Assembly (NCBI RefSeq): GCF_024464185.1 | Contig: NZ_JANHAU010000009.1 | Location: 1 to 49,462, forward strand | Reading direction: 5' to 3' | From: Haloarchaeobius salinus | GTDB lineage: Archaea > Halobacteriota > Halobacteria > Halobacteriales > Natrialbaceae | DNA length: 49,462 nucleotides | Shown here: piece by piece, positions 28,523-47,163 of the stretch | Position numbering within the stretch: position 1 is the stretch's first letter | How the letters are laid out: every line of letters begins with the position of its first letter | Translations under genes and position numbers: made by a program | The notes under the pieces: generated by a model | Seen by the model: the letters and a program-made list of their open reading frames with translations, nothing else | Told to the model about the DNA's origin: nothing | The model's database searches: none

Positions 28523-29677
28523 CTACCAGAATACGTCAATCAGACGTTGCAGTGGTGACGATGGTTGGACAGTGACTGACTCCGCTTGTGCGCTGGGTTC
28601 GGTCTCACCCTCACGAAGTTCAGAACGAGACTGTTGGGACTGCCGAAGCTCGGCAACCTCGTCCCGTGTGATTGCAAGTTCTCGTTCGAGGCTGTCGAGA
28701 CGAGACCTGAGTAGGTCGACGCGTTCGCGGAGCAGTGTGGGCTCTTGGTTCGAAGCCGAGACGGAGGAGCCGGTGCCAGCGATGCCCTGATCTCCTGTGT
28801 CTTGCTCGTACGTCTCGTTCGACACCTGCACGGCGTTTGCGATAGTCTGTTCTCCATAGGTCGACCCGTCCGCGTAGTGGACCTCGTCCCACTTCTCCCG
28901 GTAGAGACCGGAGTCACGGAACAGCTGATCCATGCGAGCCTCGTCGTTGCCAGTCCAGAACGCCAGCAGACAACAGAGTGCCATGTCAGCCTCTGACTGG
29001 CTCTCGTATCCTGCCGTACTTCCGTTCCAGAGCCGTTCGAACTTTTCGCCGTTCTTCGCGCTCGTCGCCTTCTCGATGAGTTCGGCGTCGGAGATCGAGG
29101 TCGGCGTGGAACCAGCGTCGCGCTTCTGTGCTCGCTCCTCGGTCGTCGACTCGTCGTCGCCGTACACGTACTGGTCGTACACCGGCGCGAACGTGTCCTG
29201 TCGTTCCTCAATTCGAGTCGGTGTCCCGTCGACGTGGTCGCCGGTCATGGTGAAGAACCGGGCCGAGTCGTAGCATTCGACTGACCCAGACCGGGACTTG
29301 GTGCTCGGAATCATCCCCTCGATGAGCACGTGGACACCCGTACCTGAGGGACTGACCTCGGTGTAGGAATCCAATCTCTCGACGATGTCTTCGGCCCACC
29401 CGGTGAGCTCGCCGTCCTCCCGACAGTCGTCGAGGTCCACACCGACGAAGGGGTCGTCCTCGGTGAACACGTATCCGAGTCCGTCCTCCGATTCCGAAGC
29501 CCCAAGCGCGACTTCGTAAATCGCCCACGTCTCCGGATCAGACACCGACGCGAACGAGCCGGTCTGCGGATCGATGGGGATCTTGGTCATCTTGCCATCG
29601 CGCTCTTTCGCGCGCCAGCAGACCCACTGCGGGTACTCACGAAGCGACGGAGGAATCGCGTCCGCGTCGACCGTCAT
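28523..29677 (-). CDS. Primase-like (NrS-1 polymerase / AEP type) protein of the mobile element
   Basis: 384 residues. The N-terminal domain begins PPSLREYPQWVCWRAKERDG then MTKIPIDPQTG, and carries GLGYVFTEDDPFVGVDLDDC (acidic metal-binding cluster) and TEVSPSGTGVHVLIEG (conserved S-G-T-G-x-H). This is the primase-polymerase-like fold found at the N-terminus of phage and plasmid replication proteins such as NrS-1 polymerase. The middle (about 200-270) is helical. The end is a Gln/Glu-rich coiled coil (LRERVDLLRSRLDSLERE). No helicase domain follows, so it is shorter than full replication proteins. Its ATG overlaps the VirB4 stop by 4 bases: last gene of the conjugation operon. Confidence 0.7.
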   Translation of the reverse strand: MTVDADAIPPSLREYPQWVCWRAKERDGKMTKIPIDPQTGSFASVSDPETWAIYEVALGASESEDGLGYVFTEDDPFVGVDLDDCREDGELTGWAEDIVERLDSYTEVSPSGTGVHVLIEGMIPSTKSRSGSVECYDSARFFTMTGDHVDGTPTRIEERQDTFAPVYDQYVYGDDESTTEERAQKRDAGSTPTSISDAELIEKATSAKNGEKFERLWNGSTAGYESQSEADMALCCLLAFWTGNDEARMDQLFRDSGLYREKWDEVHYADGSTYGEQTIANAVQVSNETYEQDTGDQGIAGTGSSVSASNQEPTLLRERVDLLRSRLDSLERELAITRDEVAELRQSQQSRSELREGETEPSAQAESVTVQPSSPLQRLIDVFW

Positions 29678-31680
29678 CGATGCACCTCGCCACTATCGGG
29701 GCTCAGTCGAACGTTCGAGTGCTGCTTGGAATCAGACCCAGGCTCCCTCTCACTCGTCACCACGCCATCGAGCACCTGTCGCTCGTACGGGCTTGCTCGA
29801 ACTCGGAGTGGGAACCAGCCCTCCTCGTCGATCCCGAGCAACGCCTCGGAGAAGCCGTCCTCGTCGTTGCCTGCTTTCGCGGTACGGACCCAGTTCACCT
29901 CGCGCTCGCTCAGCCCGAACCACTCCGCGAGTTTGTCGGCCTCCTCGTCGACGCGATGAATCAACGTCATCGAACAGAGGCTCGCGATGGTCTTCGCCTC
30001 GGGCGTGAGCGCGAATTCCCCACCGGTCTGCGTGATGAAGTGCAGCGAGAGGTCGTAGTGCCTGCTGTGACGCACTGCCGTCTCAAGGAATCCAAGCGAT
30101 GTCGAATCATGGAGCAGGTAGTGCGCCTCGTCGATGACGAACACGACACGCTTGTCGGTGCCTTTCGCACGCTCGTACACGGCGTTGAACAGTACCTGCA
30201 TCATCAGGCTCGTCTCCGCCTGTCCACGGACTCCCTCCTCCTGGTGCAGGTCGAGGTACACCACGGACGAGTCGAGGTCGAACTCCGTGGGTTGGGCGAG
30301 GTTCGCGAAGTCACCGTCCGGACGGAACGACGGCTGAAGGTCGGTGAGCAGCGCTTCGGCGTCCGCACGAACTCGCTCCTGCACACCTTCGGTCGGGTAG
30401 CCGAACGCCTCCGGTTCGTCGAGCATCGACTCCAGTACGCGCATGAGGTCGGTGATCGTCGGCGACTCCTTGCCGTGGGTGTCTGGGTCCCGCGTGATGC
30501 CCGCCTGCTCGTAGGTCTCCTGCACGGCACGGCGTAGGGTCTGTGTGCGGTCGCCGAGGGGGTTCGACGCGACGTGCGTGAAGAACGTCTTGAAGAACGT
30601 GAGCACCCACGCGACCTGCTCGCCCCACGGGTCGATGTCGGGTGTCGACTCCAGCACCTCGCTGGGCGTCTCCCTGATCTCGAGTGGATTGAACCCACGC
30701 GTCCCGCCGACGGTGACGCGCTCGCCACCGAGTGCGTCGCTCACGCCCGCGAACCCCTCGAGTGGATCGAGCATCACGATGATCGTATCGGGGTCGTACA
30801 TCGCCCGCCGCAGGAGCTGGAGTTTCGTCGAGAACGACTTGCCTGCGCCGAGCTTCCCGATGACCATCGTACAGTACCCGGTTTCGCGTTCGAACCGGTC
30901 GAGGATGAGCGGGCTCTCGTTGAGCGCGTACGTGCCGTACTCGATACCAGGCTCTGCGAACGCACCCGAAACGAACGGGAACATCGCACCAAGCGCACCC
31001 CCGAGCATGGGTGTGGTCGAGTCGAGTGAGTCGTCGAGTCGGTCCACGCCGATGGGACTGCACGAGACGAGGCTGTCGAGCTGCTGCCAGCGCGGCGTCA
31101 CGGGCGTCAGGTTCGCCGGCGCACGTCTCGCCGCCCCGAGCACGCCATCGACGTCGACGCGCTCTGCGTCGGGCTCGTCGGCTCTCGTGGTGAGGTACAT
31201 CGAGACGTCGAACGCCTCCATCGGCGTGTTCCGCAGCACGTCGTAGAGGTCCTGATAGTCCTCCAGGTCCTTCCGGATGCCACGCGCCCCGGCTCGGTGC
31301 CGTTCATTCAGGTACTCGTGGTCGGCTTCGAGCGTCTCGATCTTGTTCTCCAGTTCGTTCAGCGTCCGGTCCGTATCCCGGGGGTCGACGTGAATCGCGA
31401 TATCGGTCTCTCGCGTCTCGCCGGTCGAGTACAGCTGTTCGAACAGCCCGTCCGTGGGCGCGTCCGGATACTCCGCGACCCACTGCGTTCGTGTCAACTG
31501 CTCACCCATCTGGACGCTGTTCGGGAACTCCTCGATGCTGTCCGCGCTCACGAGCGACCGGTGGCTCTCCGCAACCGACCCGAGATTACGGTCCAGTCCC
31601 TCATTCGGAGCTGTCGCGTCCGTCTCCTCTCCGTCGCCCTCCGGGTCGTTGGCGAAGAACGAGCGAAGAATCCGAATCAT
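29674..31680 (-). CDS. virB4: VirB4-type conjugation ATPase
   Basis: 668 residues. Walker A is GKLGAGKSFSTKL (about 275-287) and Walker B with the catalytic Glu is VVFVIDEAHYLLHDS (about 505). Other family stretches are IIVMLDPLEGFAG and HYDLSLHFITQTGGEF. VirB4/TraC ATPases power pilus or DNA-transfer machines of type IV secretion. The first 200 residues hold an acidic tail and a helical region in place of a separate VirB4 N-terminal domain, which may be supplied by the gene upstream. Start and stop overlap the neighbours by 4 bases each. No signal or membrane helix: peripheral at the cytoplasmic face. Confidence 0.85.
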   Translation of the reverse strand: MIRILRSFFANDPEGDGEETDATAPNEGLDRNLGSVAESHRSLVSADSIEEFPNSVQMGEQLTRTQWVAEYPDAPTDGLFEQLYSTGETRETDIAIHVDPRDTDRTLNELENKIETLEADHEYLNERHRAGARGIRKDLEDYQDLYDVLRNTPMEAFDVSMYLTTRADEPDAERVDVDGVLGAARRAPANLTPVTPRWQQLDSLVSCSPIGVDRLDDSLDSTTPMLGGALGAMFPFVSGAFAEPGIEYGTYALNESPLILDRFERETGYCTMVIGKLGAGKSFSTKLQLLRRAMYDPDTIIVMLDPLEGFAGVSDALGGERVTVGGTRGFNPLEIRETPSEVLESTPDIDPWGEQVAWVLTFFKTFFTHVASNPLGDRTQTLRRAVQETYEQAGITRDPDTHGKESPTITDLMRVLESMLDEPEAFGYPTEGVQERVRADAEALLTDLQPSFRPDGDFANLAQPTEFDLDSSVVYLDLHQEEGVRGQAETSLMMQVLFNAVYERAKGTDKRVVFVIDEAHYLLHDSTSLGFLETAVRHSRHYDLSLHFITQTGGEFALTPEAKTIASLCSMTLIHRVDEEADKLAEWFGLSEREVNWVRTAKAGNDEDGFSEALLGIDEEGWFPLRVRASPYERQVLDGVVTSEREPGSDSKQHSNVRLSPDSGEVHR

Positions 31681-32687
31681 TGCACGCCTCCGACGAGCGG
31701 TGTCGTCCGCAGCCGCTGGTCCATCTCGCCCTGTGACGCGTCGGTTCCCGCCCAGAACTCCTCGACGAGTTCCGTCGCCGCTTCGACGGGAACACTGTGG
31801 GCAGTACAGCCGTCGATCTCCCGCAGGCCACCGCTGACCCGTCGCAGGCGCTCGTCGAGTCGCTGCTGCAACACGGCGCGCTGTTTCTCGATCGGTGGCG
31901 CGGCAATCGCGCGGATGAACAGCCCCAATACAGGAAGCCCGGCGAGTTGCTGGGTGATGCTCTCGCGTTCGAACTGGACCTCCTCGGGACGCACCGAGAC
32001 GACGACGTAGTGGTCACGGATGGTCATCTGACGTGAGTCGAGCTCGCGGCCGTACCACTCGATGTACTCCTCGATGAGCGCGGTCAGCTGGGGGTTCTCC
32101 TTGACGTCCGAATCCTGAAGCCGGCGTTCGTAGTGCGAGAGGTACTCTTCCACCGGAAACGACCGGGTCGTCGAATAGAACTGTAGCGGGAACTCGACGG
32201 TCGTGTTGAGAAACCGCTGGAACGCCGCCGTCGTCTGCGTCCACTCCTCGTCGGTCGCCAGCGCGAGCATGGGCGGCGTCACCTGAACGATGCCCACGAA
32301 CGCGCCGTCGGTCCGCTCGATGGCACCGAGCTCTTGATGGACTCGCTCGAGCTGTGTGTACTCCTTCGCGTCCTCGTGGTCGAGCTGCGAGGGTCGGCGC
32401 AAGTATGCGAGCATCGAGGTCACCCAGTCGATGCTCGAGGTGTACGTCGGCGTGAGGTAGACGAACACCGCGCCGACCACCGTTGCGAGTGCAGCGAGCG
32501 GGATGACGATCTGCTGGATCCGATAGCCCGCGATGGTCGTCGTCGCCGGGACCAGGAGCTGTGTCGCGAGCACGACGACAACCCCGGGGAACAGGCCGAC
32601 CATCAGGTCGGTGAGCGTGTAGCTTCCGAACAGTTTTGCGTCTGTACCGATCGACTTCGGGACTCGTTTCGCTGGTTCCGTACTCAT
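31677..32687 (-). CDS. PrgI/VirB3-like membrane protein fused to a VirB4 N-terminal-like domain
   Basis: 336 residues. Residues 1-90 read RVPKSIGTDAKLFGSYTLTD followed by two membrane helices (about 28-47 and 55-78), the PrgI/VirB3 layout. The cytoplasmic remainder resembles the N-terminal half of VirB4/TraC: VHQELGAIERTDGAFVGIVQ, EFPLQFYSTTRSFPVEEYLS and DHYVVVSVRPEEVQFE. The next gene supplies the ATPase part, so the usual VirB3-VirB4 protein appears split after the N-terminal domain. ATGA overlaps on both sides point to coupled translation and a stable complex. Confidence 0.72.
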   Translation of the reverse strand: MSTEPAKRVPKSIGTDAKLFGSYTLTDLMVGLFPGVVVVLATQLLVPATTTIAGYRIQQIVIPLAALATVVGAVFVYLTPTYTSSIDWVTSMLAYLRRPSQLDHEDAKEYTQLERVHQELGAIERTDGAFVGIVQVTPPMLALATDEEWTQTTAAFQRFLNTTVEFPLQFYSTTRSFPVEEYLSHYERRLQDSDVKENPQLTALIEEYIEWYGRELDSRQMTIRDHYVVVSVRPEEVQFERESITQQLAGLPVLGLFIRAIAAPPIEKQRAVLQQRLDERLRRVSGGLREIDGCTAHSVPVEAATELVEEFWAGTDASQGEMDQRLRTTPLVGGVQ

Positions 32688-33907
32688 GTCTGATTGGCGT
32701 CTGTTGCGTCAGTCGTCTGCGCTGTGCGTGCTGGTGGGAGTGCGCTCGGCCGGTCTGGTCGGAGCGCGTCGAAGGACTCGTTTCGTGTGCTGCTGTGAGG
32801 ACCAGCTGAATCGGTGGACGGACCACCTGCACTCTGTCTCGTCGGTGTGGAGAACACGGCACCGAGTGAGTCTCGCGTCCCGCGAACCCGCTGTCCCGCT
32901 GCGTGTGCCCGGGAGTTGCCAGAGCCGAGCACTGTCTGTCCATCCCGCCGAATCGCGCTGTCCCCGCGAAGTCCCCGGGAGAAGTTCCGGCCCCCGTGGG
33001 CTGCGGTCTGGCCTGCTTGCTTGGTAGAGCTCATCTGCTGTCCCAGACGGCCTGTCGAGACCTGGCGACCGATACGCTCGCTCGCGACGAACATCGCGCC
33101 CGCCTGCCAGAACAGGACGAATGGCGCGACGAGTGCGAGAAACGGCGTCACGAGGCCGAGGATCCACGAGATCAGACCGGTGACCGAGAGTCCGAAATTC
33201 TCGCCGAGGATAGCCGAGAGTCGGAACAGGACCACCGCTGGGAACGTCATGAACAGGAAGGGCACGTAGAAACCTGCCAGCCGCTTCATGAACCGCGCGA
33301 CGAGCGCAAACGGGCCCACACTCGGGATCCACATGACGATCAGGAGCGGCATCACCAGAACGAACATGTACAGCGCAATTCGCCTGGCTAGATAGACGAT
33401 CGCGATGGAAGCGAGGAGCGAGTTGTTCACGGACACCGAGATCGCGTAGGCGATCGCACTGAGGGCACTATACGAGATGGTCTCGATCAAATCGACGTCC
33501 GAGAGGTCCGGGAGGATGTACACTCCGAGGTTGTCCACGAACTGCAGCGAGAACGCGGCGATCCACCACCACGAGAGGATAGCGAGCAGTCCTGCGAACG
33601 CACGCCGTTTCAGCCGTGCTCCCTGGTAACCGCTGAAGAGATTGCTCGTCGACTCCAGCAGGATAATCAGACCGATCGACAGCGCCCAGACACCGAGTGC
33701 GAGCGGGACGATCGACTCCCAGTAGTAATCGTAGAGACTGGGCCAGACGCCGTTCGTGGGCCGACTGAAGATCGCGTTCGGCGCATCCGTGCCGATCACG
33801 AACTGGAGAACCTCGTTGCCGTACTCCTCGACGAGGGTTTCGAGAGGCTGGAATAGCTCCTCAACGAAGTCTGTGAGGGCATCGATTATTATCTCTTTTA
33901 GACCCAT
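32684..33907 (-). CDS. VirB6/TrbL-like polytopic membrane protein of the conjugation operon
   Basis: 407 residues. About six to seven membrane helices lie between residues 60 and 285 (for example SIVPLALGVWALSIGLIILL and LVTPFLALVAPFVLFWQAGA). A polar, Ser/Thr/Arg-rich tail of about 120 residues (RQVSTGRLGQQMSSTKQAGQ...) follows, as in VirB6/TrbL channel proteins. The start at 33905-33907 has a strong Shine-Dalgarno, GGAGGAGG, 5 bases upstream. It is now the first intact gene of the operon. The stop overlaps the next ATG by 4 bases. Its role would be the inner-membrane channel for DNA transfer. Confidence 0.75.
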   Translation of the reverse strand: MGLKEIIIDALTDFVEELFQPLETLVEEYGNEVLQFVIGTDAPNAIFSRPTNGVWPSLYDYYWESIVPLALGVWALSIGLIILLESTSNLFSGYQGARLKRRAFAGLLAILSWWWIAAFSLQFVDNLGVYILPDLSDVDLIETISYSALSAIAYAISVSVNNSLLASIAIVYLARRIALYMFVLVMPLLIVMWIPSVGPFALVARFMKRLAGFYVPFLFMTFPAVVLFRLSAILGENFGLSVTGLISWILGLVTPFLALVAPFVLFWQAGAMFVASERIGRQVSTGRLGQQMSSTKQAGQTAAHGGRNFSRGLRGDSAIRRDGQTVLGSGNSRAHAAGQRVRGTRDSLGAVFSTPTRQSAGGPSTDSAGPHSSTRNESFDALRPDRPSALPPARTAQTTDATDANQT

Positions 33908-34019
33908 CAGTCCTCCTCCTGAACGGTTTCGAGTTCGGCGGTCGCTTCGCTACAGATGTGCCGATTCCAGACCCCATGTTTGAGCAACCAACAAATCCAT
34001 ACTTCCCGCTCCGTGACGA
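33906..34019 (-). pseudogene. C-terminal remnant of an upstream conjugation-operon gene
   Basis: The minus frame ending at 33906 reads IVTEREVWICWLLKHGVWNR and HICSEATAELETVQEED-stop. Its TGA overlaps the VirB6-like ATG (TGATG), as expected for a gene of the same operon. To the right it runs straight into the divergent histidine kinase gene, so its 5' part and the operon promoter appear to be lost or replaced. No family recognised. Confidence 0.35.
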
Positions 34020-34025
34020 TTGTGT

Positions 34026-36185
34026 ATGACTGCTGATTCCGGGGGCGACCGCCACCGATTCGTACACCCGGACTCGGGGCCCATCCATCTCCTCCACGTC
34101 GACGACGACCCACAGCTTGCAGCCCTCGTTTCGGCCTTTCTCGAACGGCAGGGCGACCGGTTTCGCGTCCAGACAGAGACGGATCCGGAAGCGGCGCTGT
34201 CGACGATTCGAGACGATGCAACCGACTTCGACTGCATCGTCAGCGACTACGACATGCCCGGGCTGGACGGCCTCGAACTCCTCGAGCAGATCCGAACGGA
34301 CTACCCGAACCTGCCGTTCGTCCTGTTCACCGGCCATGGCTCCGAAGCAATTGCGAGCGAAGCGATCACTGCTGGCGTCACGGAGTACCTGCAAAAGGGC
34401 GGTGGCAGTGAGCAGTACACCGTCCTGGCCAACCGAATCGAACAGGTCGTCGAGCGGTACTGGGCCGAGCGCTACGCCGACCACGCACGACAGGCCATCG
34501 AGACGGCACAGGGAGGCATCAACATCCTCGACGAGGACGGCTACATCCAATATGTCAACGAGGCCTGTGCGGACCTCCTCGGGTACGAGCGTCAAGAACT
34601 ACTCGGCGAGCACTGGGAGGTTCTGTATCGTGACGAAGACATCGACGAGGTCTACGAGGTCCTGTTACCGGAAGCACGACAAGGGCAGTGGCAGGGCCGG
34701 ACCTCTTACAAGCGTAACGATGGCAGTGTCATCGAGACCAACCACACGCTCACCGTCAGCGCCGACGGCTCGCTCATCTGTACGTTCTCACCCATCGACG
34801 ACCCCGCCACGGAACGGGCGCTCTCACTCCGAACGCGCGCGATGGACGAAGCACCCGTCGGAATCGTCTTGATTGACCCCCACGCCGACGGGAACCCGAT
34901 CACGTACGCGAACGATCGATTCACCGAACTCAGCGGCGACGACAGCGCCGATGTCGTGGGACGAGACTGGCTCTTCCTGGAGGGTCCGGACACGAGCGCC
35001 GAGGCCGTTGCCGAGCTCCGCTCTGCCATCCAGGAGCGTGACCGGGCCACCGTGGAGCTGCGAAACCATCGGGCGGACGGGACGGTGTTCTGGGATCGCG
35101 TCCGGGTCGCGCCCGTGTTCGATTCCGACGGCGAGCTGGCACGCTTCGTCAGCTTCCACGACGACGTGACGGACCGAAAGGCCGCCGAAGAGCACCTCCA
35201 GTCCAGCACGGCTCGGCTCGAAGCGCTGTTCGATGGCTCACCCGACATGATCATACTCCACGACGCCGACGGCGTCATCCAGGACGTCAACCGTGAGACC
35301 TGCAGGAAACTCGGGTACACGGAGTCCGAACTCGTCGGGAAGACGGTGTGGGACATCGACGCGACGGCCGACAGGGAGCGAGCGCAGTCGTTCTGGGACG
35401 GCCTGGAAACGAACTGTCCACGACGGTTCGAAGCCGAGCTCCGGCGTTCCAACGGGGAGACGATCCCGGTCGAGGTCCACCTGATCCGGCTGGACCTCGA
35501 CGGGGAGGACCGGTTCGTGGCGATGGATCGCGACATCACAGAGCAGCGAGCGCGCGAGGACGAACTCCTCCGACAGAACGAACGCCTCGACCGCTTCGCG
35601 AGCGTCGTCAGCCACGACCTGCGGAACCCGCTCCAGCTCGCCCAGGGCCGTCTCGAACTCCTCAGCGACGAGTGTGAGAGCGAGCACACAGACGACATCG
35701 AGTTCGCGTTGAACCGGATGGACGACCTCGTCGAGAACCTGCTCACCCTGGCACAACTGGGTGACGAAGCGATGGAATTCCAGCGAGTTGCACTTTCAGA
35801 GCTCGTCCGGAACTGTTGGGAGACGGTCGACACACGAGACGCGACGCTCGTCGTCGAGACCGAGCGCTCCGTGGATGCGGACCCGGACCAACTCCAGCAA
35901 CTGTTCGAGAACCTCATTCGAAACACCGTCGAGCACGGCGGAATGGACGTCACCGTGACCGTCGGTGACACCGATACCGGGTTCTACGTTGCGGACGATG
36001 GCCCGGGAATCCCGGAGTCCGAGCACGAGAAGGTGTTCGAGGCGGGCTACTCGACGGCAGATGCGGGGACTGGCTTCGGCCTGGATATCGTCGAACAGAT
36101 CGTCGCCGCGCACGACTGGACGGTTCAGCTCACCGAGAGCGCCGATGGTGGGGCGCGCTTCGATGTACGGACGGATACCGAATGA
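34026..36185 (+). CDS. Hybrid sensor: receiver - three PAS - histidine kinase
   Basis: 719 residues from the ATG at 34026; a TTG two codons upstream is an alternative. Domains in order are: receiver (about 18-135) with IHLLHVDDDPQ, phosphoacceptor in CIVSDYDMPGLDG and YLQKGGG; PAS 1 (about 150-255, INILDEDGYIQYVNEACADL); PAS 2 (about 270-390, IVLIDPHADGNPITYANDRF); PAS 3 (about 395-510, MIILHDADGVIQDVNRETCR); HisKA with the phosphorylated His in SVVSHDLRNPLQLA; and HATPase with N box LFENLIRNTVEHGG and G boxes DDGPGIPES and GTGFGLDIVEQIV. Fully cytoplasmic. Ligand unknown. It is divergent from the conjugation operon and abuts its broken 5' end. Confidence 0.88.
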   Translation: MTADSGGDRHRFVHPDSGPIHLLHVDDDPQLAALVSAFLERQGDRFRVQTETDPEAALSTIRDDATDFDCIVSDYDMPGLDGLELLEQIRTDYPNLPFVLFTGHGSEAIASEAITAGVTEYLQKGGGSEQYTVLANRIEQVVERYWAERYADHARQAIETAQGGINILDEDGYIQYVNEACADLLGYERQELLGEHWEVLYRDEDIDEVYEVLLPEARQGQWQGRTSYKRNDGSVIETNHTLTVSADGSLICTFSPIDDPATERALSLRTRAMDEAPVGIVLIDPHADGNPITYANDRFTELSGDDSADVVGRDWLFLEGPDTSAEAVAELRSAIQERDRATVELRNHRADGTVFWDRVRVAPVFDSDGELARFVSFHDDVTDRKAAEEHLQSSTARLEALFDGSPDMIILHDADGVIQDVNRETCRKLGYTESELVGKTVWDIDATADRERAQSFWDGLETNCPRRFEAELRRSNGETIPVEVHLIRLDLDGEDRFVAMDRDITEQRAREDELLRQNERLDRFASVVSHDLRNPLQLAQGRLELLSDECESEHTDDIEFALNRMDDLVENLLTLAQLGDEAMEFQRVALSELVRNCWETVDTRDATLVVETERSVDADPDQLQQLFENLIRNTVEHGGMDVTVTVGDTDTGFYVADDGPGIPESEHEKVFEAGYSTADAGTGFGLDIVEQIVAAHDWTVQLTESADGGARFDVRTDTE

Positions 36186-37092: not shown

Positions 37093-37114
37093 CCACGGGT
37101 CACCTGACCCGTGG
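37093..37114. repeat. Left-end hairpin of TnpB element 1
   Basis: Perfect 10-base arms CCACGGGTCA / TGACCCGTGG with a 2-base spacer (CC). Subterminal hairpins of this sort are recognised by TnpA in the IS200/IS605 superfamily. Confidence 0.85.
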
Positions 37115-37167
37115 GTGAATGCCAACAAACCACTAAATTTAACTCATCTTACGACAAACTATACGTA

Positions 37168-38505
37168 ATGCAAGACTTAGGGCTAACTCAAACCCTCTCG
37201 TTTGGACTCACCGTCCGAGAAGGTGAACCTAAGAACTTGCACGACGCCAACCTCGAAGCCCGACGAATCCGCAACGAAACCAACCGACTCGACAACGAAC
37301 ACTGGGGGTGGAATGACATCCAAGACACAGTGGTCGAGAACGCTAACCTCGTCAAAAACACGACGCAGCTCCTTGTCCAGAAAGCACTCGGAGAAATCGA
37401 GACGTACCACGAGCACAAACACGACGAGTGGGGACGCCCATATCCGTACATCGACGAACCGTACCCACTCCGAATGAACCACGACGAAGGCTACGCCCTC
37501 ACCGTGGACGACGATGAAAACGTCCGGTTCCGCGTGAGTTACAAACCGTACAACTACGTCAAAGGTACGCTTCGGGGGAGTCCCGACCACCTCGAACGAG
37601 TCAAGAACGCGCTCTCATCTGAAACGTGGAGGGTCGGCGTGGCCGAGCTCGTGTACAAACACGACGAGTGGAGACTCCACGTTTCAGTCACGCACAAAAC
37701 ACGCACCGTATCGTCCCCAGACGACGCTGACACCGTGGTTGGAGTCGACATCAATGAAGACTGTGTGGCGCTCGCCGCGATGAATCGAGACACTGGTGAC
37801 GTACTCGACTCAATCATTTTCGAGTACCCGGACATCAAGCGTGTTCGCCACGAGTATTTCACGAAGCGCAAGCGGATGCAGAAAGTCGGGCAAGCAGCGT
37901 TCGAGAACGTGGTTCGCTCGGAGGAACAAGACTTCGTTCACGACCAAATCCACAAAGTATCGCGCGACGTAACTCGATGGGTTTCGCAATTCAACGACCC
38001 GGTAATTGTCTTTGAAGACCTCAAAGACATGCGAGACTCCATCGATTACGGAACGCGGATGAACCGCCGCTTACACAGCCTACCGTTCGCCGCTCTTCGG
38101 ACGATGACTTCGTACAAAGCCGCGTGGGACGGCATCCCGAGCGGTGACGTGGACCCTGAGTACACGAGTCAACGGTGTCCGCGAACGAGTTGTCTGCATA
38201 CGGCGCGGTCGAACCGTCGGCGGAAGCGGTTCAAGTGTACAGAGTGCGGGTTTCAAGACCATGCGGACCGGAAGGCGGCGGTTTGTGTGGCGCAAGAATG
38301 GTTTACTGACCACGATGAGAATGTGCCGTCTCTCGATATGCTTTCGAGCGTTCGGAAGGTGAGACGGACGGCATCGGGCCTGTGTGAAGAGGCCGACGCT
38401 CACGGACCAGTTTTTGGTTCGGGTGTTCACCGACACGGAACGTCGGCGCAAGGCGAGAGCCAAGCGCGAGCGGAATTAAAGACCGTTGCGTCTACGGCGG
38501 ATTAG
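37168..38505 (+). CDS. tnpB: TnpB, RNA-guided RuvC endonuclease of an IS605-type element
   Basis: 445 residues from the ATG at 37168 (MQDLGLTQTLSFGL). The split RuvC nuclease is complete: GVDINEDCVALA (Asp), VFEDLKDMRDS (Glu) and DHADRKAAVCVAQ (Asp). The zinc ribbon between them reads CPRTSCLHTARSNR then FKCTECG, though the first knuckle C-x4-C is wider than the usual CxxC. TnpB proteins cleave DNA guided by an RNA from the element's right end, which favours element retention. The last 80 residues (from ADAHGPVFGSGVHRH) are poorly ordered. It is only distantly related to the TnpB at 42.5-43.7 kb. Confidence 0.85.
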   Translation: MQDLGLTQTLSFGLTVREGEPKNLHDANLEARRIRNETNRLDNEHWGWNDIQDTVVENANLVKNTTQLLVQKALGEIETYHEHKHDEWGRPYPYIDEPYPLRMNHDEGYALTVDDDENVRFRVSYKPYNYVKGTLRGSPDHLERVKNALSSETWRVGVAELVYKHDEWRLHVSVTHKTRTVSSPDDADTVVGVDINEDCVALAAMNRDTGDVLDSIIFEYPDIKRVRHEYFTKRKRMQKVGQAAFENVVRSEEQDFVHDQIHKVSRDVTRWVSQFNDPVIVFEDLKDMRDSIDYGTRMNRRLHSLPFAALRTMTSYKAAWDGIPSGDVDPEYTSQRCPRTSCLHTARSNRRRKRFKCTECGFQDHADRKAAVCVAQEWFTDHDENVPSLDMLSSVRKVRRTASGLCEEADAHGPVFGSGVHRHGTSAQGESQARAELKTVASTAD

Positions 38506-39025: not shown

Positions 39026-39586
39026 TCAGTCGACGAGGTACTGCTGGCGAAGCTGAGCGACATACCCTGCATCCCAGCTCTTAGTTTCGACGTAGTAGCT
39101 GAGTGCAGCCGCAACGTATTCTGTGGGAAGGATTCGGTGGGTAGCGAGTGTACAGAGAACGTACGGCGTCGTAAAGAGCGTATTCCGGTCGTCGAGGGCA
39201 AGGGCAACGAAGAGGTAGTTCGTCGTGCTGAACTCGTCGGTGATGAACAGGTCCGCCGCCAGTTCGTTGGCCAGCCAGATACCCTCGGATTCGCCACGGT
39301 CGAGCCCGTATCCGAGTGGATCGTCGTGACGCTCGTCGACATCGTGCGTGGTCAGGTGCTGTGTGGCTTGTAAGACGAGATCGGCGGCTGCAGACAGGAG
39401 ATCACCGTTCCCTGTCGCCTCGCCGAGCTCTCCGAGAACGCTCGCAGGTATGTGGACGTCGTACGCGGTGAGAAGTGCTTTGAGCGGGTCTGCTCCGGTA
39501 GGGGCCTTCGGTCGGCCGTCGACGACTGGTGTTGCGAGGTTCAACAGAACGTTGGTGTCGACGACAGCGCGCGCCTTCTCCGACAT
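39026..39586 (-). CDS. PIN-domain toxin
   Basis: 186 residues. AVVDTNVLLNLATPVVDG is the PIN start (D9, N11), then PASVLGELGEATGNG (Glu), GYGLDRGESEGIWLANEL (conserved Asp and Glu with the Gly-E-S-E motif of this PIN group) and LFITDEFSTTNYL (last Asp). It is a probable ribonuclease toxin. It begins 2 bases after the stop of the ribbon-helix-helix-like antitoxin gene and is coupled with it. It is longer than classical VapC (about 130-140 residues), closer to the larger haloarchaeal PIN proteins. Confidence 0.78.
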   Translation of the reverse strand: MSEKARAVVDTNVLLNLATPVVDGRPKAPTGADPLKALLTAYDVHIPASVLGELGEATGNGDLLSAAADLVLQATQHLTTHDVDERHDDPLGYGLDRGESEGIWLANELAADLFITDEFSTTNYLFVALALDDRNTLFTTPYVLCTLATHRILPTEYVAAALSYYVETKSWDAGYVAQLRQQYLVD

Positions 39587-39588
39587 CG

Positions 39589-39963
39589 TCAGGCGTTCGA
39601 CTCCTCATCCCTCCATTCAGGAACGTCACCGTCGTAGAAGGCCTCATCGCTCGGAGGACCGTCACCGAGACGAGGCTCGGCCGGTGTTCGGTCGATTGAG
39701 GACCGGAGAAGCTTCATTCGCATCGCTTCCTCGCGGCCAAGGATTGCTTCGACGGTCTCGTAGTCGACCCGACCCTGATAGTAGGCGTCGCCGAGACGGC
39801 GACGGAACTCTGTGTCGTTCGCGAGTTCCTCGAGTTCGTCTTCGAGGGCATCAATGAGCAGACGTGTCCGTGAGATATCGAGGATTTCGACGACGCTATC
39901 GGCGCGCTCGACGAGCGATTTCGGGGCGTTGAAATCGACTCGTGTTTTCTCTTCGGCCATCAT
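39589..39963 (-). CDS. Antitoxin, ribbon-helix-helix type, partner of the PIN toxin
   Basis: 124 residues. The N-terminus TRVDFNAPKSLVERADSVVE and ISRTRLLIDALEDELEELA is a ribbon-helix-helix DNA-binding domain. The second part (RLGDAYYQGRVDYETVEAIL) is the region that usually binds the toxin and has the same pattern as the orphan antitoxin at 45.7-46.1 kb (DIAAAYYDDEISFDQLKALV). Two ATGs in tandem (39963, 39960) are possible starts. A 21-base palindrome lies just upstream and is a likely self-regulating operator. It forms an operon with the PIN gene. Confidence 0.78.
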   Translation of the reverse strand: MMAEEKTRVDFNAPKSLVERADSVVEILDISRTRLLIDALEDELEELANDTEFRRRLGDAYYQGRVDYETVEAILGREEAMRMKLLRSSIDRTPAEPRLGDGPPSDEAFYDGDVPEWRDEESNA

Positions 39964-39964
39964 C

Positions 39965-39985
39965 TATGTGTAGGACCTACACATA
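39965..39985. promoter_or_regulatory. Palindromic operator of the RHH-PIN toxin-antitoxin operon
   Basis: Perfect palindrome TATGTGTAGG - A - CCTACACATA (10-base arms), one base upstream of the first antitoxin ATG. It must overlap the transcription start of a leaderless message, the expected position for autorepression by an RHH antitoxin. Confidence 0.75.
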
Positions 39986-40002
39986 ATAAACTTCGTGGGT
40001 GG

Positions 40003-40605
40003 TCAGTAGTGCACGTCGGCCGGGACGATCCACAGTTCGCTCGTATCCAGCACGCGCTCCAAGTGGCCGGGGTCACGAATCCCGTCCCCATGTCGGTCGT
40101 AGAGGTACAGTGAGGGGCCCCGGTACGCGCCGAGGTTGTAGCAGGCATGACGGATCAGGTTCCGGTCGCGCATCACGTCCTCGGTGCTGTACTCACAGAT
40201 GGACTCCCGGATCTTCTCGAGGTTACGTTCGAACTCGGCGACGGTCGCGGTCCAGCCGCGTTCGAGGAGCGCTTGGCCCTCGGTCGAATTGACGCGAGCT
40301 GCAACCGGCAGGTCGCCCCATCGGTCTCGACCGGCCGTCGCGTGGCCGTCCATGTCGAACGTGACGTAGTAGTCGAAGACAGCCGCGTCGTGTGGCGTCG
40401 CGCCGACGAGTCGGTCGAACGTCATCCTCGCTTCCGCGAGCGCGCTGTCTTCGGTCGGTGCCTCGACGAGTGCATAGATTAGCTGGTGCATTGTCGAACC
40501 TCGCCAGCACGCCATCGACTCACAGAATCGATCGGTCGCGCTGGCACCCGCTGCCAGCGCCACAAACTGGCTGCGGTCGCTCAGGTCAACCTGTGAGGGG
40601 GACAT
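40003..40605 (-). CDS. Haloarchaeal protein of unknown function
   Basis: 200 residues, no family recognised. It has no signal or membrane segment. Visible features are FDYYVTFDMDGHATAGRDRW (an acidic D-x-D-x-H stretch), SICEYSTEDVMRDRNLIRHA and ACYNLGAYRGPSLYLYDRHG near the end. The gene begins immediately after the stop of the TumE-like toxin gene (next base), so it is the third gene of that operon and may belong to the same function. Its acidic composition and gene-like codon use support coding. Confidence 0.65.
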   Translation of the reverse strand: MSPSQVDLSDRSQFVALAAGASATDRFCESMACWRGSTMHQLIYALVEAPTEDSALAEARMTFDRLVGATPHDAAVFDYYVTFDMDGHATAGRDRWGDLPVAARVNSTEGQALLERGWTATVAEFERNLEKIRESICEYSTEDVMRDRNLIRHACYNLGAYRGPSLYLYDRHGDGIRDPGHLERVLDTSELWIVPADVHY

Positions 40606-41034
40606 TCAGTCCCAGAACGACTTGATTCGTTCATCCAACGACGACAAAACAATCGAGAGCACGTCTCGCCAGTCCCGAGGGAACGCTGTATCCTCACCGG
40701 GCGTCTTCGCATTCGGTGGTGGGTGGAAATGCTCGCGGTCGTTGTGGTCGTTCGGATGCCGGTCCCACCGACACTCCCAGGCCTTGTCCTCGTGGTACTG
40801 CTCTGTGTAGTGGATACTGAAATCGTCTGTCTCGAACCACCGAATACGAAGCGATGCATGCTCGACACCGGCTGGGAAATACCCAGACTCGAAAGTCGCA
40901 ACGACCGCATTCGGTGCATACTCTGGGCGATATTCGACACGAGAGAATCGCTCGCTTCCACGCAACCGTCGACCGATTCGTTCTAGCACAGACGCATCGA
41001 GACCACCGACGCCGGCTGACTCTTCCTCAGGCAT
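40606..41034 (-). CDS. TumE-like (DUF6516) toxin candidate
   Basis: 142 residues. After a helix with LDASVLERIGRRLRGSERF comes a beta-rich core, ASLRIRWFETDDFSIHYTEQ, then YHEDKAWECRWDRHPNDHND, REHFHPPPNA. The succession of strands, a Y-H-x-D segment, RWDxxPxH and FPxHxH-like histidines resembles DUF6516/TumE toxins, which pair with a helix-turn-helix antitoxin (TumA). Here the HTH gene lies directly upstream and overlaps by 8 bases. Assignment rests on the pattern and on the operon; the toxin role is unproven. Confidence 0.55.
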   Translation of the reverse strand: MPEEESAGVGGLDASVLERIGRRLRGSERFSRVEYRPEYAPNAVVATFESGYFPAGVEHASLRIRWFETDDFSIHYTEQYHEDKAWECRWDRHPNDHNDREHFHPPPNAKTPGEDTAFPRDWRDVLSIVLSSLDERIKSFWD

Positions 41035-41593
41035 TCACGCTCCCCGCACGTCCGCTCGGTAGGTCGTCACGGCGAGCAGCATCCAGCAGTGCCGCGCGTT
41101 TCTCGAGCGTCTTCCAGTCAGACACTGCCTCCCAGATTTCCTCGACCGAACTGTCGCGGCTCGCATCAACCAACGACACCTCATCGGGAGAGTCCACATC
41201 GAAGCGATTCCGGTGCGCCTCGACTGCGTCGAGCGTCTCTTTCAGTCGCTCGACGATTTCACTCTCCGAGAGTTCCTGACGAATCTGCTCGACTCTGCGC
41301 CACTCCAGGTACGAATCGTTTCGCTCGTACTGAACTGGCCGCCCCGACAGTTCGCGCACGACTCCCATCTCGGTGAACCACTCCAGGTAATCGCGTGCTG
41401 TCTCCGTGTCACAGTCCGCCCGGTCAGCAATGGCCGACACCTTCGTCGGCTCGCGGACTTGCATCACGACATCGAGCATCCGCTCTCTAATCGACCCGCC
41501 TTTCAGGAGTTCTTCCGGAGGCTCCAACTTGCTGAAGTCAGGCGGTTCTCCGTCCGCTTCGGGCATCTCTTCGGGCGTGTCGGTCAGGTCCAT
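41027..41593 (-). CDS. Helix-turn-helix protein (DUF7342-like), probable antitoxin of the TumE-like gene
   Basis: 188 residues from the ATG at 41593 (MDLTDTPEEMPEADGEPPDF); ATGs at 41599 and 41686 are alternatives. The N-terminus is acidic and disordered. A winged helix follows at about residues 32-90: SIRERMLDVVMQVREPTKVS, AIADRADCDTETARDYLEWF and VVRELSGRPVQYERND. The rest is helical with RRVEQIRQELSESEIVERLK, a possible partner-binding surface. This layout is that of the haloarchaeal DUF7342 family. It overlaps the next gene by 8 bases, as in toxin-antitoxin operons. Confidence 0.7.
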   Translation of the reverse strand: MDLTDTPEEMPEADGEPPDFSKLEPPEELLKGGSIRERMLDVVMQVREPTKVSAIADRADCDTETARDYLEWFTEMGVVRELSGRPVQYERNDSYLEWRRVEQIRQELSESEIVERLKETLDAVEAHRNRFDVDSPDEVSLVDASRDSSVEEIWEAVSDWKTLEKRAALLDAARRDDLPSGRAGSVNA

Positions 41594-41719
41594 ACACATA
41601 TCTACGCGTTTTCCTGTGATATATCTATTGTAAACTGAATTATTTCGGTAATACTGTTCTCTCACGATGGTGGCGTTTCTCGCCACATCCGTTCCGACAA
41701 TTGAATCGGGATCCGTCGT

Positions 41720-42166
41720 TCAGTCGGGCAACGACTCGTTTTCGAACCCCTGCTCCCCGTCGCGGAAGCACGGCCAGCACGGGACACTATCCGGAAGCTC
41801 GCTGCAGTCACAGTCGTCCCCGTCACCGGGCTCAGAATCTGGGTCTTCGACCGGCACCAGACCGCCGTCGGTCGCAACGGCATTCCGCTGTGCAGCACCG
41901 AGAACTGGACCTCGAATCGCGACGGCGACGCGGTGTTTGCACGCGCCGTCGAAGCGCTCGTCTGCTGGGCAGCTACACGAAGCTGGGAGCCCGTCGACGA
42001 CCCGCACCAGGTAGCGATGCTCGCTCGGGTCGGCGTGGCTGCAGTTGGTCACGAGCACGCCCTCCGGGATGAGTGCGAACTCGAAGGCCTCGTACTCGGC
42101 GCGCCGACGCACGCGCTTGCTGAACTCCAGTCTCGTCAGTGGATGCGTTTCGTTGGTGGGAATCAG
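41720..42166 (-). CDS. SWIM zinc-finger protein
   Basis: The core reads RAEYEAFEFALIPEGVLVTN, then RYLVRVVDGLPASCSCPADE and RFDGACKHRVAVAIRGPVLG. The CxCx9CxH pattern (CSCPADERFDGACKH) is the SWIM zinc finger, a DNA- or protein-binding module common on haloarchaeal plasmids. A second cysteine cluster (CDCSELPDSVPCWPC) is near the C-terminus. The family-like N-terminus THPLTRLEFSKRV lies upstream of the only good codon (GTG at 42112). The frame is open to a CTG at 42166, and the TATA module at 42169-42197 would place the transcript start there. So the start is either the GTG, an unusual CTG, or damaged. Confidence 0.72.
   Translation of the reverse strand: MIPTNETHPLTRLEFSKRVRRRAEYEAFEFALIPEGVLVTNCSHADPSEHRYLVRVVDGLPASCSCPADERFDGACKHRVAVAIRGPVLGAAQRNAVATDGGLVPVEDPDSEPGDGDDCDCSELPDSVPCWPCFRDGEQGFENESLPD

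Positions 42167-42466: not shown

Positions 42467-42469
<3 letters not shown>
42216..42469 (-). pseudogene. RelE/ParE-type toxin, 5' end cut off by TnpB element 2
   Basis: The remaining frame reads TPQAAAQFDRQDSHIQDRIV, SKLDEVVESEWREPVDYLEP and LTGGPFDKLRVGQYRLACVL, ending VLEVHRIEHRSGAYTADD. This is a RelE-type mRNA interferase with the usual FDKLRVGQYRL and HRIEHRSGAY motifs. Its first codons, ATGGAAGTTC, are found on the far side of the TnpB element at 43867-43876. Joining them gives ATG-GAA-GTT-CTG-ACT-CCG, a perfect MEVLTPQ start. Where it stands, an ATG created at the junction (42468-42470) could still start a toxin lacking only the first strand residues. Confidence 0.75.
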
Positions 42470-43723
<1,254 letters not shown>

Positions 43724-43826
43724 CTGTAACCTCACATACGGGACGTTGTTTTATGAGTTCTACGACTGACGTGGGGGAGTCGGATTGCTATCGCTCGTGG
43801 TTGGTCGCTTGGATTGTCGGATTCCT

Positions 43827-44379: not shown

Positions 44380-45303
44380 TCACTCGGCGAGTGCTCCGAG
44401 CCGCTCACGGTGGTTCCGAACAGTCGCAGTCGACGTACCTGCCGCTGCTGCGACCTCCTGCTGGGTCAGCCACTGCGAGCGTTGGCCAGCCTTGTACAGG
44501 CAGGCTGCAGCGAACCCGGAGGGCTGGACGCCGTTGGTCACACCCGCACGCTCGGCTTCGCGAGCGAGTTCAAGCGCACGCTGGTGGAGCCTGTCGGGGA
44601 CGTCCAGGTCAGATGCGAGTCGGGGAACGAACTCGCTGGGAGTCATGGGTTGCGTCGGGAGACTCAGTTCGACGTTGAGTGTCTTGTACGACCCCTGAAC
44701 CCGATCTTGCTCGACGCGGGCGACACTGGAAACCTCGGCGAGTGTTCGGGGAAGCCCGTTACATCGCGCCACGGCGTAGACACTGGCCGCTGCGACCCCC
44801 TCGATGGACCGACCGCGCAACAGGCTCTCCGACTGTGCGGTGCGGAACAGCGAACACGTCTGGTCACGGATCGAGTCCCCGAGTCCCAGCGCGCCGACGA
44901 TACGACGAATCTCGGTGAAGCCGTGCATGAGATTCCGGTCGGCCTTGGTCTCGTACCGTCCACGCGAGTGCTCACGACGGAGTCGGTGGAGCTGCCGTCG
45001 CTTCCGGTTGGAGAGCCCGTTCCCATTGCTGTCGGTGCCGTACCCGATCGTGGTCGAGAGCCCACGGTCGTGGTGTGCCGCCGTCAGCGGGGCACCCGAC
45101 CGCCGACGCGTGTCCTCGTCGTGTGACCGCCATTCTGGACCCCGGTCGAGCCGCCGTTCCCTGACGATGAGTCCGCAGTCCTCACAGGCAAACTCGTTCG
45201 AATCGGCCGTGATGCGGCCATCGCACTCCGGACAGGTGTTCGCGTGCTGGTCGAGCGGGACGTCTTCGTCGAACGTTCGTGGATAGATGTCGCTAACTGG
45301 CAT
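44380..45303 (-). CDS. tfb: Transcription initiation factor TFB
   Basis: 307 residues. N-terminal zinc ribbon CPECDGRITADSNEFACEDC (C-x2-C...C-x2-C), then the B-finger/linker region RGPEWRSHDEDTRRRSGAPL with AAHHDRGLSTTIG. Two cyclin repeats follow (about 120-205, 215-305): RRIVGALGLGDSIRDQTCSL, SIEGVAAASVYAVARCNGLP, and FAAACLYKAGQRSQWLTQQE with VAAAAGTSTATVRNH. TFB recruits RNA polymerase to TBP-bound promoters. Haloarchaea use several TFBs as global regulators. This one, carried among mobile genes, may serve promoters of the element. Upstream module 45342-45369 has the shared TATA plus inverted repeat. Confidence 0.88.
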   Translation of the reverse strand: MPVSDIYPRTFDEDVPLDQHANTCPECDGRITADSNEFACEDCGLIVRERRLDRGPEWRSHDEDTRRRSGAPLTAAHHDRGLSTTIGYGTDSNGNGLSNRKRRQLHRLRREHSRGRYETKADRNLMHGFTEIRRIVGALGLGDSIRDQTCSLFRTAQSESLLRGRSIEGVAAASVYAVARCNGLPRTLAEVSSVARVEQDRVQGSYKTLNVELSLPTQPMTPSEFVPRLASDLDVPDRLHQRALELAREAERAGVTNGVQPSGFAAACLYKAGQRSQWLTQQEVAAAAGTSTATVRNHRERLGALAE

Positions 45304-46132: not shown

Positions 46133-47107
46133 TCATGACACAGTTTCGACCGCGCTGATGATCTCTCGAGCCGTCCCAACAATGCGCTCTAATCGCTCCT
46201 GGATCGTCTCCGCCGGCTCACCGTCCCACGCGGCGACGTACAGCGCGCTCCGTGACGCATCGAGGCCGAAGTACTGCGAGACGACGAAGGCCGTGCTCTC
46301 GGCCTCGACCTCGCGCTTCTCGCGCTCGTCGGCGTCGTTGACGTCGAAATGGAGCAACGCGTGTGCGTACTCGTGAGCCAGGACGCTTGCGACCTGCGCG
46401 TCGTTGTCGTCGTCTCGGACTTCGACGAGCAGCGAGCAGTCGTACGTACTCCGCTCGGTACAGACGCCCGCTGCACTCCCATGCGACCACTCCTCGGGAG
46501 ATACGAGGTTCACACGAACGCCGAGTTCGGGTGCGGCGTCAACTAATGCATCCAGAAGTTCACCTTCGCTTCCGTCCCCACGCGCCTCCGTATCGAGTTC
46601 GGGCAGTGGCTCGTCCTCGGTCTGGGAGACGTCGAACACGGGAACTGGCTTGAACCCGACCAGCCCCCTGTCCCATTCGTCGGGCGGCGTCTCGTCGTAC
46701 TCACAGTCGCTCTTCTCGTGGTACGACGGCGAGTTCCCACAGCCCGGGCATCGTTTCGCGATGATGGGTGCCCAGATCCAGATGGCCGACTCGCCCTTCG
46801 AGACGTATCTGTCGAACTCGTTCCGCCACGTGTTGTAGCCCGCAATTTTCGTCGCCTCTGGGCACTGGTGTTTGATCAGCAGGGTGTTCCGGTACGAGTA
46901 ATCGTGGAACCGCGACTGGACGTCCAGCCACTCCTGGAGTTCTGCGCTCGCGCTGGCTTCGTCCGAGAGCTCGGCGAACTGCTCGACCCACGCTTCGAGC
47001 GAGTCGTGCATCTCGTCGCGACGGGTGTCCGAGTCGTCGAACTGCGTTCTGCTCGTCTGGGACTGGTCGGTCTCGGTACAATCGGTCTGGGTTCTCTCGC
47101 AGGACAT
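46133..47107 (-). CDS. ArdC-like antirestriction protein with metallopeptidase domain
   Basis: 324 residues from the ATG at 47107 (MSCERTQTDC), which has GGAG 9 bases upstream; an ATG 12 codons earlier is less likely. The N-terminal ArdC domain (about 30-140) binds single-stranded DNA in known members: WVEQFAELSDEASASAELQE, FHDYSYRNTLLIKHQCPEAT, NTWRNEFDRYVSKGESAIWI. A zinc site CPGCGNSPSYHEKSDC follows. The C-terminal part (about 205-320) is an ImmA/IrrE-like peptidase with VASVLAHEYAHALLHF (HExxH variant HEYAH) and a downstream Glu in REVEAESTAF. ArdC helps incoming plasmids evade restriction, in line with the conjugation genes. Module 47135-47163 lies upstream. Confidence 0.82.
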   Translation of the reverse strand: MSCERTQTDCTETDQSQTSRTQFDDSDTRRDEMHDSLEAWVEQFAELSDEASASAELQEWLDVQSRFHDYSYRNTLLIKHQCPEATKIAGYNTWRNEFDRYVSKGESAIWIWAPIIAKRCPGCGNSPSYHEKSDCEYDETPPDEWDRGLVGFKPVPVFDVSQTEDEPLPELDTEARGDGSEGELLDALVDAAPELGVRVNLVSPEEWSHGSAAGVCTERSTYDCSLLVEVRDDDNDAQVASVLAHEYAHALLHFDVNDADEREKREVEAESTAFVVSQYFGLDASRSALYVAAWDGEPAETIQERLERIVGTAREIISAVETVS

Positions 47108-47134
47108 CGAAACTCTCCGGGGGAGTACTCTGGT

Positions 47135-47163
47135 CTCCCCCACCCGACAGGGGAGTCATAAAC
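47135..47163 (-). promoter_or_regulatory. Shared TATA + inverted-repeat module, upstream of ArdC copy 1
   Basis: Minus strand: GTTTATGA (47156-47163), then CTCCCC - TGTCGGGTG - GGGGAG (47155-47135), perfect 6-base arms. It is 28-56 bases before the ArdC start, so it should cover the region between TATA box and transcription start. Confidence 0.7.

Follow-up and report, generated by a model that had tools for sequence, protein, structure and literature searches.

Why would an archaeal operon for a type IV secretion system (T4SS) end in a gene for a primase? The question is raised by a 49,462-base stretch of Haloarchaeobius salinus DNA (NZ_JANHAU010000009.1; hereafter the window), which is an entire contig, C9, of a draft haloarchaeal genome of 3.85 Mb. 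Four genes on its minus strand encode, in this order, a VirB6-like protein, a PrgI/VirB3-like protein that carries a VirB4 N-terminal domain (PrgI/VirB4N), a VirB4 ATPase and an NrS-1-type primase-polymerase. Tens of haloarchaeal loci share this gene order, and the arrangement is thus beyond chance. We lean, with some reserve, towards the explanation that these genes form the 3' part of a conjugation module of haloarchaea, which has a primase of its own working together with the VirD4 motor.

Anatomy of the operon

The VirB6/TrbL-like protein (32684..33907) is a multi-pass membrane protein of 407 amino acids (aa), which matched PF19590 (TrbL_3) with an E-value (E) of 1.8e-18 and our own profile with E 4.6e-191. 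The next gene (31677..32687) encodes a protein of 336 aa, in which a PrgI/VirB3-like segment with two hydrophobic, presumably membrane-spanning, stretches (residues 22-50 and 56-82) is followed by the VirB4 N-terminal domain. Residues 127-240 matched the TrsD/TraD family (E 4e-9, below cut-off). In a Foldseek search with its AlphaFold2 model (mean predicted local distance difference test score, pLDDT, 66.4) the top 14 matches were all R388 TrwK/VirB4 complexes; the best had E 2.6e-3, a probability of 1.00 and a query TM-score (TMq) of 0.30, and none reached E <0.001. The VirB4 ATPase of 668 aa (29674..31680) has intact Walker A (GKLGAGKS, residue 275) and Walker B (VVFVIDEA, residue 512) motifs and matched NF045975 and NF045971 at E <1e-40, but below their curated bit cut-offs. 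The primase-polymerase of 384 aa (28523..29677) closes the operon. As judged by homology, the first three proteins are T4SS members, with the features of channel proteins and of VirB4 in place. The sequence-only reading of this DNA, which had proposed a T4SS core with a linked primase and with PrgI and the VirB4 N-domain on one chain, was borne out by the profiles and by Foldseek.

That reading had also described the genes as coupled by ATGA overlaps, and all three 4-base overlaps were confirmed, at 32684..32687 (VirB6/PrgI), 31677..31680 (PrgI/VirB4) and 29674..29677 (VirB4/primase). The same spacing was found in 10 of 55 loci at the first joint and in 36 of 54 at the second. At the third it is unique to the window among the 15 loci with a close primase, although the gap is 50 bases or less in 13 of them. 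The split of VirB4, which had been called unusual, is the usual state among related haloarchaeal loci: PrgI/VirB4N and VirB4 are separate open reading frames (ORFs) in 54 of the 57 loci that have both and fused in three (L040, L092 and L093; loci are given by our L numbers), and 11 additional loci comprise seven split and four fused cases. The spacing and split/fused tallies left out L094, which lies on the same contig as L029. A local oddity of the window is thereby ruled out as the origin of the split.

A primase gene recurs behind haloarchaeal VirB4

VirB4 of the window kind (E ≤1e-40) was found in 185 of 292 haloarchaeal genomes, and primase of the window kind (E ≤1e-20) in 135. The closest relatives encountered were Haloarchaeobius iranensis (L029) and Haloarchaeobius sp. 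FL176 (L037). In relatives, the full order is pilin candidate, secreted protein, lipoprotein, VirB6, PrgI/VirB4N, VirB4, in some cases VirD4, and primase. Counts of places refer to the matches listed, that is, 151 VirB4 places, one of which (contig C7 of the own genome) was added from a separate search, and 150 primase places. A same-strand primase gene lies within 10 kb downstream of VirB4 at 54 of the 151 places, 15 times within 1 kb and 39 times after 4.4-8.9 kb, which leaves room for one VirD4 gene, and in no case was a primase gene listed in any other orientation within 12 kb of VirB4. The coupling of a primase to transfer genes, taken for an oddity in the sequence-only reading, is therefore nothing of the kind. 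Moreover, the linkage extends to operons whose VirB4 is just ~34-43% identical. When we fetched 20 of the 96 apparently unlinked primase loci, 14 proved to follow VirB4 or VirD4 on the same strand; of the other six, two had opposite-strand VirD4 pieces, one had no T4SS match, two had helicase-fused primases and one was at a contig end.

The place behind VirB4 can also be taken by other gene types. A PriS-like primase with the NCBIfam primase-associated protein NF038197 was found at 42 of the 151 places, and a gene type that we call C14 at seven. At least one of the three types is present at 102 places, and two together at one; this tally used only the 54 VirB4-linked places of the 150 listed NrS-1-type primases and left out some partial NF038197 and partial C14 places. 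C14 is a primase candidate by its place, by a single PriS-like motif and by its long relatives, two of which gave weak matches to a phage DNA-primase family. Its predicted structure (mean pLDDT 38.2) was unusable, and a search for C14 relatives in viral contigs found none. In L112 (2694-4318 and 10988-11917), a C14 relative in two frames lies ~7 kb from an opposite-strand, helicase-fused NrS-1-type primase. In the NCBI annotation, the two PriS-type genes are named ('DNA primase', 'primase-associated protein'), whereas L227 and L229 have a 'hypothetical protein' at the NrS-1-type place.

The primase is of the phage NrS-1 type but lacks the helicase

The window primase matched the helix-bundle domain (HBD) PF22763 with E 4.7e-30 and the NrS-1 primase (PDB 7rr3) with E 1.1e-40 across residues 10-291. 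The Prim/Pol motifs of NrS-1-like archaeo-eukaryotic primases (AEPs), namely DxD, sxH and the third motif, are present together with the HBD, as DLD at residues 81-83, SPS at 109-111 with H116, YREKWD and STYG. Residues reported to be of importance in NrSPol are S108/P109/S110, Y146 (Phe tolerated) and, in the HBD, R249/K251/Y261 (PMC8718748; citations here and below refer to excerpts of the articles). They align to S109/P110/S111, F141 and R260/K262/Y274 of the window primase (residues counted by eye), and in an alignment of 22 proteins S109, P110, S111, K262 and Y274 were invariant and R260 nearly so. Thus, the Prim/Pol domain and HBD, the SPS loop, the DLD motif and the R/K/Y residues of the HBD are common to the window protein and NrSPol (PDB 7rr3, 6k9a, 6a9w).

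Unlike full-length NrS-1-like proteins, the 384-aa window primase has no D5-type C-terminal helicase and no Walker A motif; instead, it ends in a variable, coiled-coil-like region and a short hydrophobic tail. T4SS-linked primases in general are 297-462 aa long, lack Walker A and, unless truncated, end in a coiled-coil-like region with a short hydrophobic/basic tail. The tail motif was found in 24 of 34 linked primases (2000 shuffles gave a mean of 6.5 and a maximum of 14), and the window primase's own tail does not fit the pattern. The set used here, and that used for the distance correlation below, left out the near-identical L094, L116, L079 and L105, as well as all proteins of up to 330 aa. 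Among the best 80 of 265 relatives in viral contigs, 74 had a Walker A motif behind the primase, most were 750-864 aa long, and none had T4SS genes within the examined stretch. Nine viral full-length primase-helicases, analyzed with Pfam, contained the HBD in nine, D5_N in six and Pox_D5 in five cases. On sequence grounds, the window-type primase is a primase-polymerase of the phage NrS-1 type that has been separated from the D5-type helicase.

With such relatives, the gene could be the vegetative replication (Rep) gene of the element, which happens to close the transfer operon. The viral relatives are replicative primase-helicases, and NrS-1-type AEPs cluster with the replication enzymes of mobile elements (PMC5862659), as this would predict. 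However, the T4SS-linked primases lack the helicase and are located downstream of VirB4/VirD4 on the same strand, other gene types replace them at that very place, and one T4SS plasmid has an orc1/cdc6 initiator gene at the opposite flank of the operon. We therefore regard a Rep function as doubtful.

The C-terminus of VirD4 tracks the type of primase

The sequence-only reading had seen no VirD4 or relaxase in the window, and our searches agreed: a VirD4 profile found no match in the whole window, and a Pfam scan found no relaxase domain among 24 window ORFs, with the genes at 1-20 kb outside the scan. Its suggestion to look in other haloarchaeal elements proved fruitful, as the same order was found there, with VirD4 nearby in 22 of 59 related loci. 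VirD4 was also located on contig C7 of the own genome (L040), which bears a second, complete system: secreted protein, lipoprotein, VirB6, a 1107-aa PrgI-VirB4N-VirB4 fusion, a 395-aa protein, VirD4 of 1023 aa, a 115-aa protein and a primase that shares 56% identity with that of the window. A weak pilin match is found at C7:36595-36942 (E 2.3e-4).

The C-terminus of VirD4 matched Pox_D5 above cut-off in L019 and L227 and below it in L229, L040 and L096; no Pox_D5 match was found in VirD4 of the PriS-type locus L228. Where an NrS-1-type primase lies on the same strand, the VirD4 profile reached into this D5-like end in 17 of 18 loci; it did so in all 10 of the 10 C14 loci, as compared with none of four PriS loci, of one mixed locus, of three loci with an opposite-strand primase and of two loci without primase. 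In the mixed locus (L089), a separate ORF of 183 aa near the NrS-1-type primase matches just the D5-like end. The D5-type C-terminal domain of VirD4 tracks the primase type. As this domain, whose normal place is behind the helicase, here belongs to VirD4, the primase and the VirD4 motor are probably paired.

A bolder version, which we think unlikely, is that of a replicase split across the transfer motor. The primase-HBD part and the D5-type end of an NrS-1/D5 protein would have been separated, with the VirD4 pump replacing the helicase between them, and the primase/VirD4 pair would unwind or pump DNA while copying it. Conjugation would then be replication-coupled, single-stranded and possibly relaxase-free; primase type and VirD4 C-terminus would be swapped as one unit, and the primase tails would be docking or export signals.

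How a dedicated primase could serve conjugation

If the four genes belong to a conjugation module with a dedicated primase, VirB6, PrgI/VirB4N and VirB4 would, by homology, make up a membrane channel and its motor, and the system would transfer DNA. The last gene would encode a transfer primase that starts the complementary strand in the recipient or a replacement strand in the donor, may form a physical pair with VirD4, and may itself pass through the channel. On single-stranded M13 DNA, NrSPol initiates synthesis de novo (PMC8718748), which fits the need for complementary-strand synthesis after transfer.

Several points weigh against a conjugation module of this kind. Archaeal conjugation may move double-stranded DNA (PMC6563490), and if so, no primer would be needed. 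The co-variation of VirD4 with the primase counts kin repeatedly, because near-identical C14-type rows served to build the VirD4 profile. Comparison of C14 with the PriS-like profile gave only one 33-column motif match with a probability of 10.8, the pilin profile found nothing in the PDB at E 10 or better, and the relaxase search of the own genome, made with PF03432 and not with other MOB families, gave a match only at E 0.56. None of the three gene types was listed at 28 of 45 close-subfamily VirB4 places, and the distances of VirB4 and primase correlated weakly (r 0.234, n 31; 1 of 5000 permutations was as high). Strict co-inheritance of VirB4 and primase was rejected on the basis of this correlation.

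Weak co-inheritance and the many operons without a primase are also what an accidental coupling would give, in which the primase fell behind VirB4 by chance and spreads neutrally. This explanation, already disfavoured, appears very improbable to us. The 54 same-strand downstream places are opposed to none in other orientations; the ratio of non-synonymous to synonymous substitutions (dN/dS; Nei-Gojobori) against H. iranensis is 0.19 over the full primase and 0.083 within the core; and the primase is repeatedly associated with divergent VirB4s. Operons lacking the primase or having a full-length VirB4, either of which the sequence-only reading had taken as a mark of accident, do both exist; the conclusion of an accident did not hold, as the primase recurs at the same place and strand.

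The window copy has lost its 5' end

In relatives, VirB6 is preceded by three genes, which encode a VirB2-like pilin candidate, a secreted membrane-anchored protein and a lipoprotein. The first is ~140 aa long, with a signal peptide, two hydrophobic stretches and a charged loop, and its putative pilin identity rests on the signal peptide, the hydrophobic stretches and the gene place. The secreted protein (~570 aa) has a C-terminal hydrophobic stretch, and the lipoprotein has ~290 aa. The window retains only the final ~22 codons of the lipoprotein gene (C8; 33907..33982, minus strand), at the end of which the homology with H. iranensis stops. A PAS/response-regulator histidine kinase gene, which is outside the T4SS, abuts the cut operon (34020..36185, plus strand), and the counterpart of this kinase region in FL176 stops at window position 33985. 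FL176 has lost VirB6, PrgI and the first ~310 codons of VirB4, while its primase gene is intact; the rest of its VirB4, a pseudogene, is broken by three in-frame stops and one frameshift, which made a dN/dS comparison of it uninformative.

No VirB2-like pilin was found in the window, and no close copy of the pilin or the secreted protein elsewhere in the own genome, where the matches were the divergent C7 copies and a 74-residue match on C12 (E 0.0018). Because the upstream genes are cut off and the pilin and secreted protein lack close copies elsewhere, the window operon, devoid of pilin, surface protein and lipoprotein, is probably a decaying, non-transferring remnant. The sequence-only reading had treated it as complete; a complete system is ruled out by the end of homology at 33982 and by the absent pilin and secreted protein. 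All four frames are open, with dN/dS of 0.07-0.19 against H. iranensis (Nei-Gojobori, dS 0.39-1.0), and most of this signal may predate the cut.

Might the chromosomal versions without VirD4, including that of the window, be DNA importers like Ced and Ted, in which the primase copies incoming single strands? A VirB2-like/VirB6/VirB4 set without VirD4 equals Ced/Ted (PMC9905601). Among the 59 related loci, 37 gave no same-strand VirD4 match, and 28 of these 37 have a pilin candidate. In three Halosimplex loci, a secreted metallo-beta-lactamase/lamin-tail protein replaces the primase after VirB4 (L008, 12014-13797; same place in L010 and L038); it resembles ComEC. However, none of the Ced models matched the window VirB4 above cut-off (CedD, E 3e-4, 19.6 bits against a cut-off of 600), the loci are patchy and decaying in Haloarchaeobius, and the counts of loci without VirD4 include contig ends. 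An import function thus seems rather improbable.

Other genes of the element and its surroundings

Beyond the kinase gene, as seen from the operon, a group of genes for a PIN protein, proteins of 124, 200 and 142 aa, a DUF7342 winged helix-turn-helix protein and a SWIM zinc-finger protein, assigned with Pfam (39026..42112, minus strand), probably represents 5' accessory genes of the element; the same clusters are found upstream of the T4SS in some related loci. A homolog of transcription factor B (TFB) is encoded at 44380..45303 on the minus strand (PF00382, E 1.2e-31), and, of the 81 T4SS or primase loci scanned, 21 contain a TFB relative (the window and 20 others). An ArdC-like anti-restriction candidate (46133..47143, minus strand) matched PF08401 at E 8e-4, below cut-off, in addition to metalloprotease matches, and recurs in one other of the 81 loci. 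A second, frame-broken copy, 79-82% identical, lies near the contig end (48054-49384, minus strand). ArdC resembles the transport domain of TraC1 (according to a title cited in PMC7690428), and ArdC of IncW protects the transferred strand (PMC7690428).

Two TnpB/IS605-type genes (37111-38505, plus strand; 42467-43735, minus strand) are located in or just upstream of the region that lacks the 5' genes of the operon. On the other side, an aglB/STT3 oligosaccharyltransferase gene (21648-24116, minus strand) lies near the operon, as it does in L005, L026, L032, L034 and L037; these may share an insertion region within loci for surface glycans. Of 30 related loci scanned for tRNA genes, only two had any (L080 and L084), which gives no sign of a shared tRNA insertion site. 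Exonuclease VII, which is specific for single-stranded DNA, is encoded (xseA, xseB) upstream of the T4SS in plasmid loci L096 (4009-5247) and L228 (556-3187), and the matching cluster was found in 10 loci. A Cdc6/Orc1-type gene follows VirB4 in L005 (12554-13861), L011 and L034.

Relation to known systems and significance

The order VirB6-PrgI/VirB4N-VirB4, with overlapping or adjoining genes, is also that of Haloarcula marismortui pNG600 (L096) and of plasmids L227, L228 and L229, which carry VirD4 and at least some of the pilin, surface-protein and lipoprotein genes, whereas the window copy has neither. Archaeal VirB4 has been placed in the FATA group, and one plasmid of haloarchaea, pNG500, was described as conjugative in 2011 (PMC3158045); VirB4 and VirD4 genes are also held by archaeal elements bearing fusexins (PMC9259645). 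Ced of Sulfolobales and Ted of Thermoproteales have VirB2, VirB6 and VirB4 and, as here, no VirD4 (PMC9905601). The haloarchaeal set differs from them in the VirB3/PrgI protein joined to the VirB4 N-domain, the surface proteins and the primase, and by falling below the Ced cut-offs. Thaumarchaeal integrative-conjugative elements likewise have VirB4, VirB6 and VirB3 homologs, a TFIIB gene and no relaxase found, but their transfer genes are not syntenic, and the excerpts of their description mention no primase-ended transfer operon (PMC6563490). In conjugative plasmids of Sulfolobus and Thermococcus, the homologs are limited to VirB4 and VirD4, and a relaxase is absent, according to a 2025 review (PMC12857230).

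Among bacterial systems, the closest functional analogy would be that with SogL and RP4 TraC1, primases dedicated to a transfer system, and SogL is a known protein substrate of a bacterial conjugation system (PMC8406263). The haloarchaeal loci resemble these in the primase role proposed here. SogL and TraC1 belong to a different enzyme family from the window primase, and presumably differ from it in fold.

Parts of the haloarchaeal system have been annotated already. A conserved primase in an archaeal transfer operon was not found described in the open-licence PMC full texts, as far as their excerpts go, and the system-level pattern appears to be undescribed within that literature. Whether single- or double-stranded DNA is moved in archaeal conjugation, and how transfer starts without a recognisable relaxase, is an open question (PMC12857230, PMC6563490). 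The primase-type gene at a fixed place in most of the listed haloarchaeal T4SS loci argues that a strand needs priming, and the co-variation of primase and VirD4 makes the two a directly testable protein pair. Taken together, the window holds a beheaded copy that led to a conserved haloarchaeal feature, and operons ending in a primase bear on how archaea pass DNA to each other.

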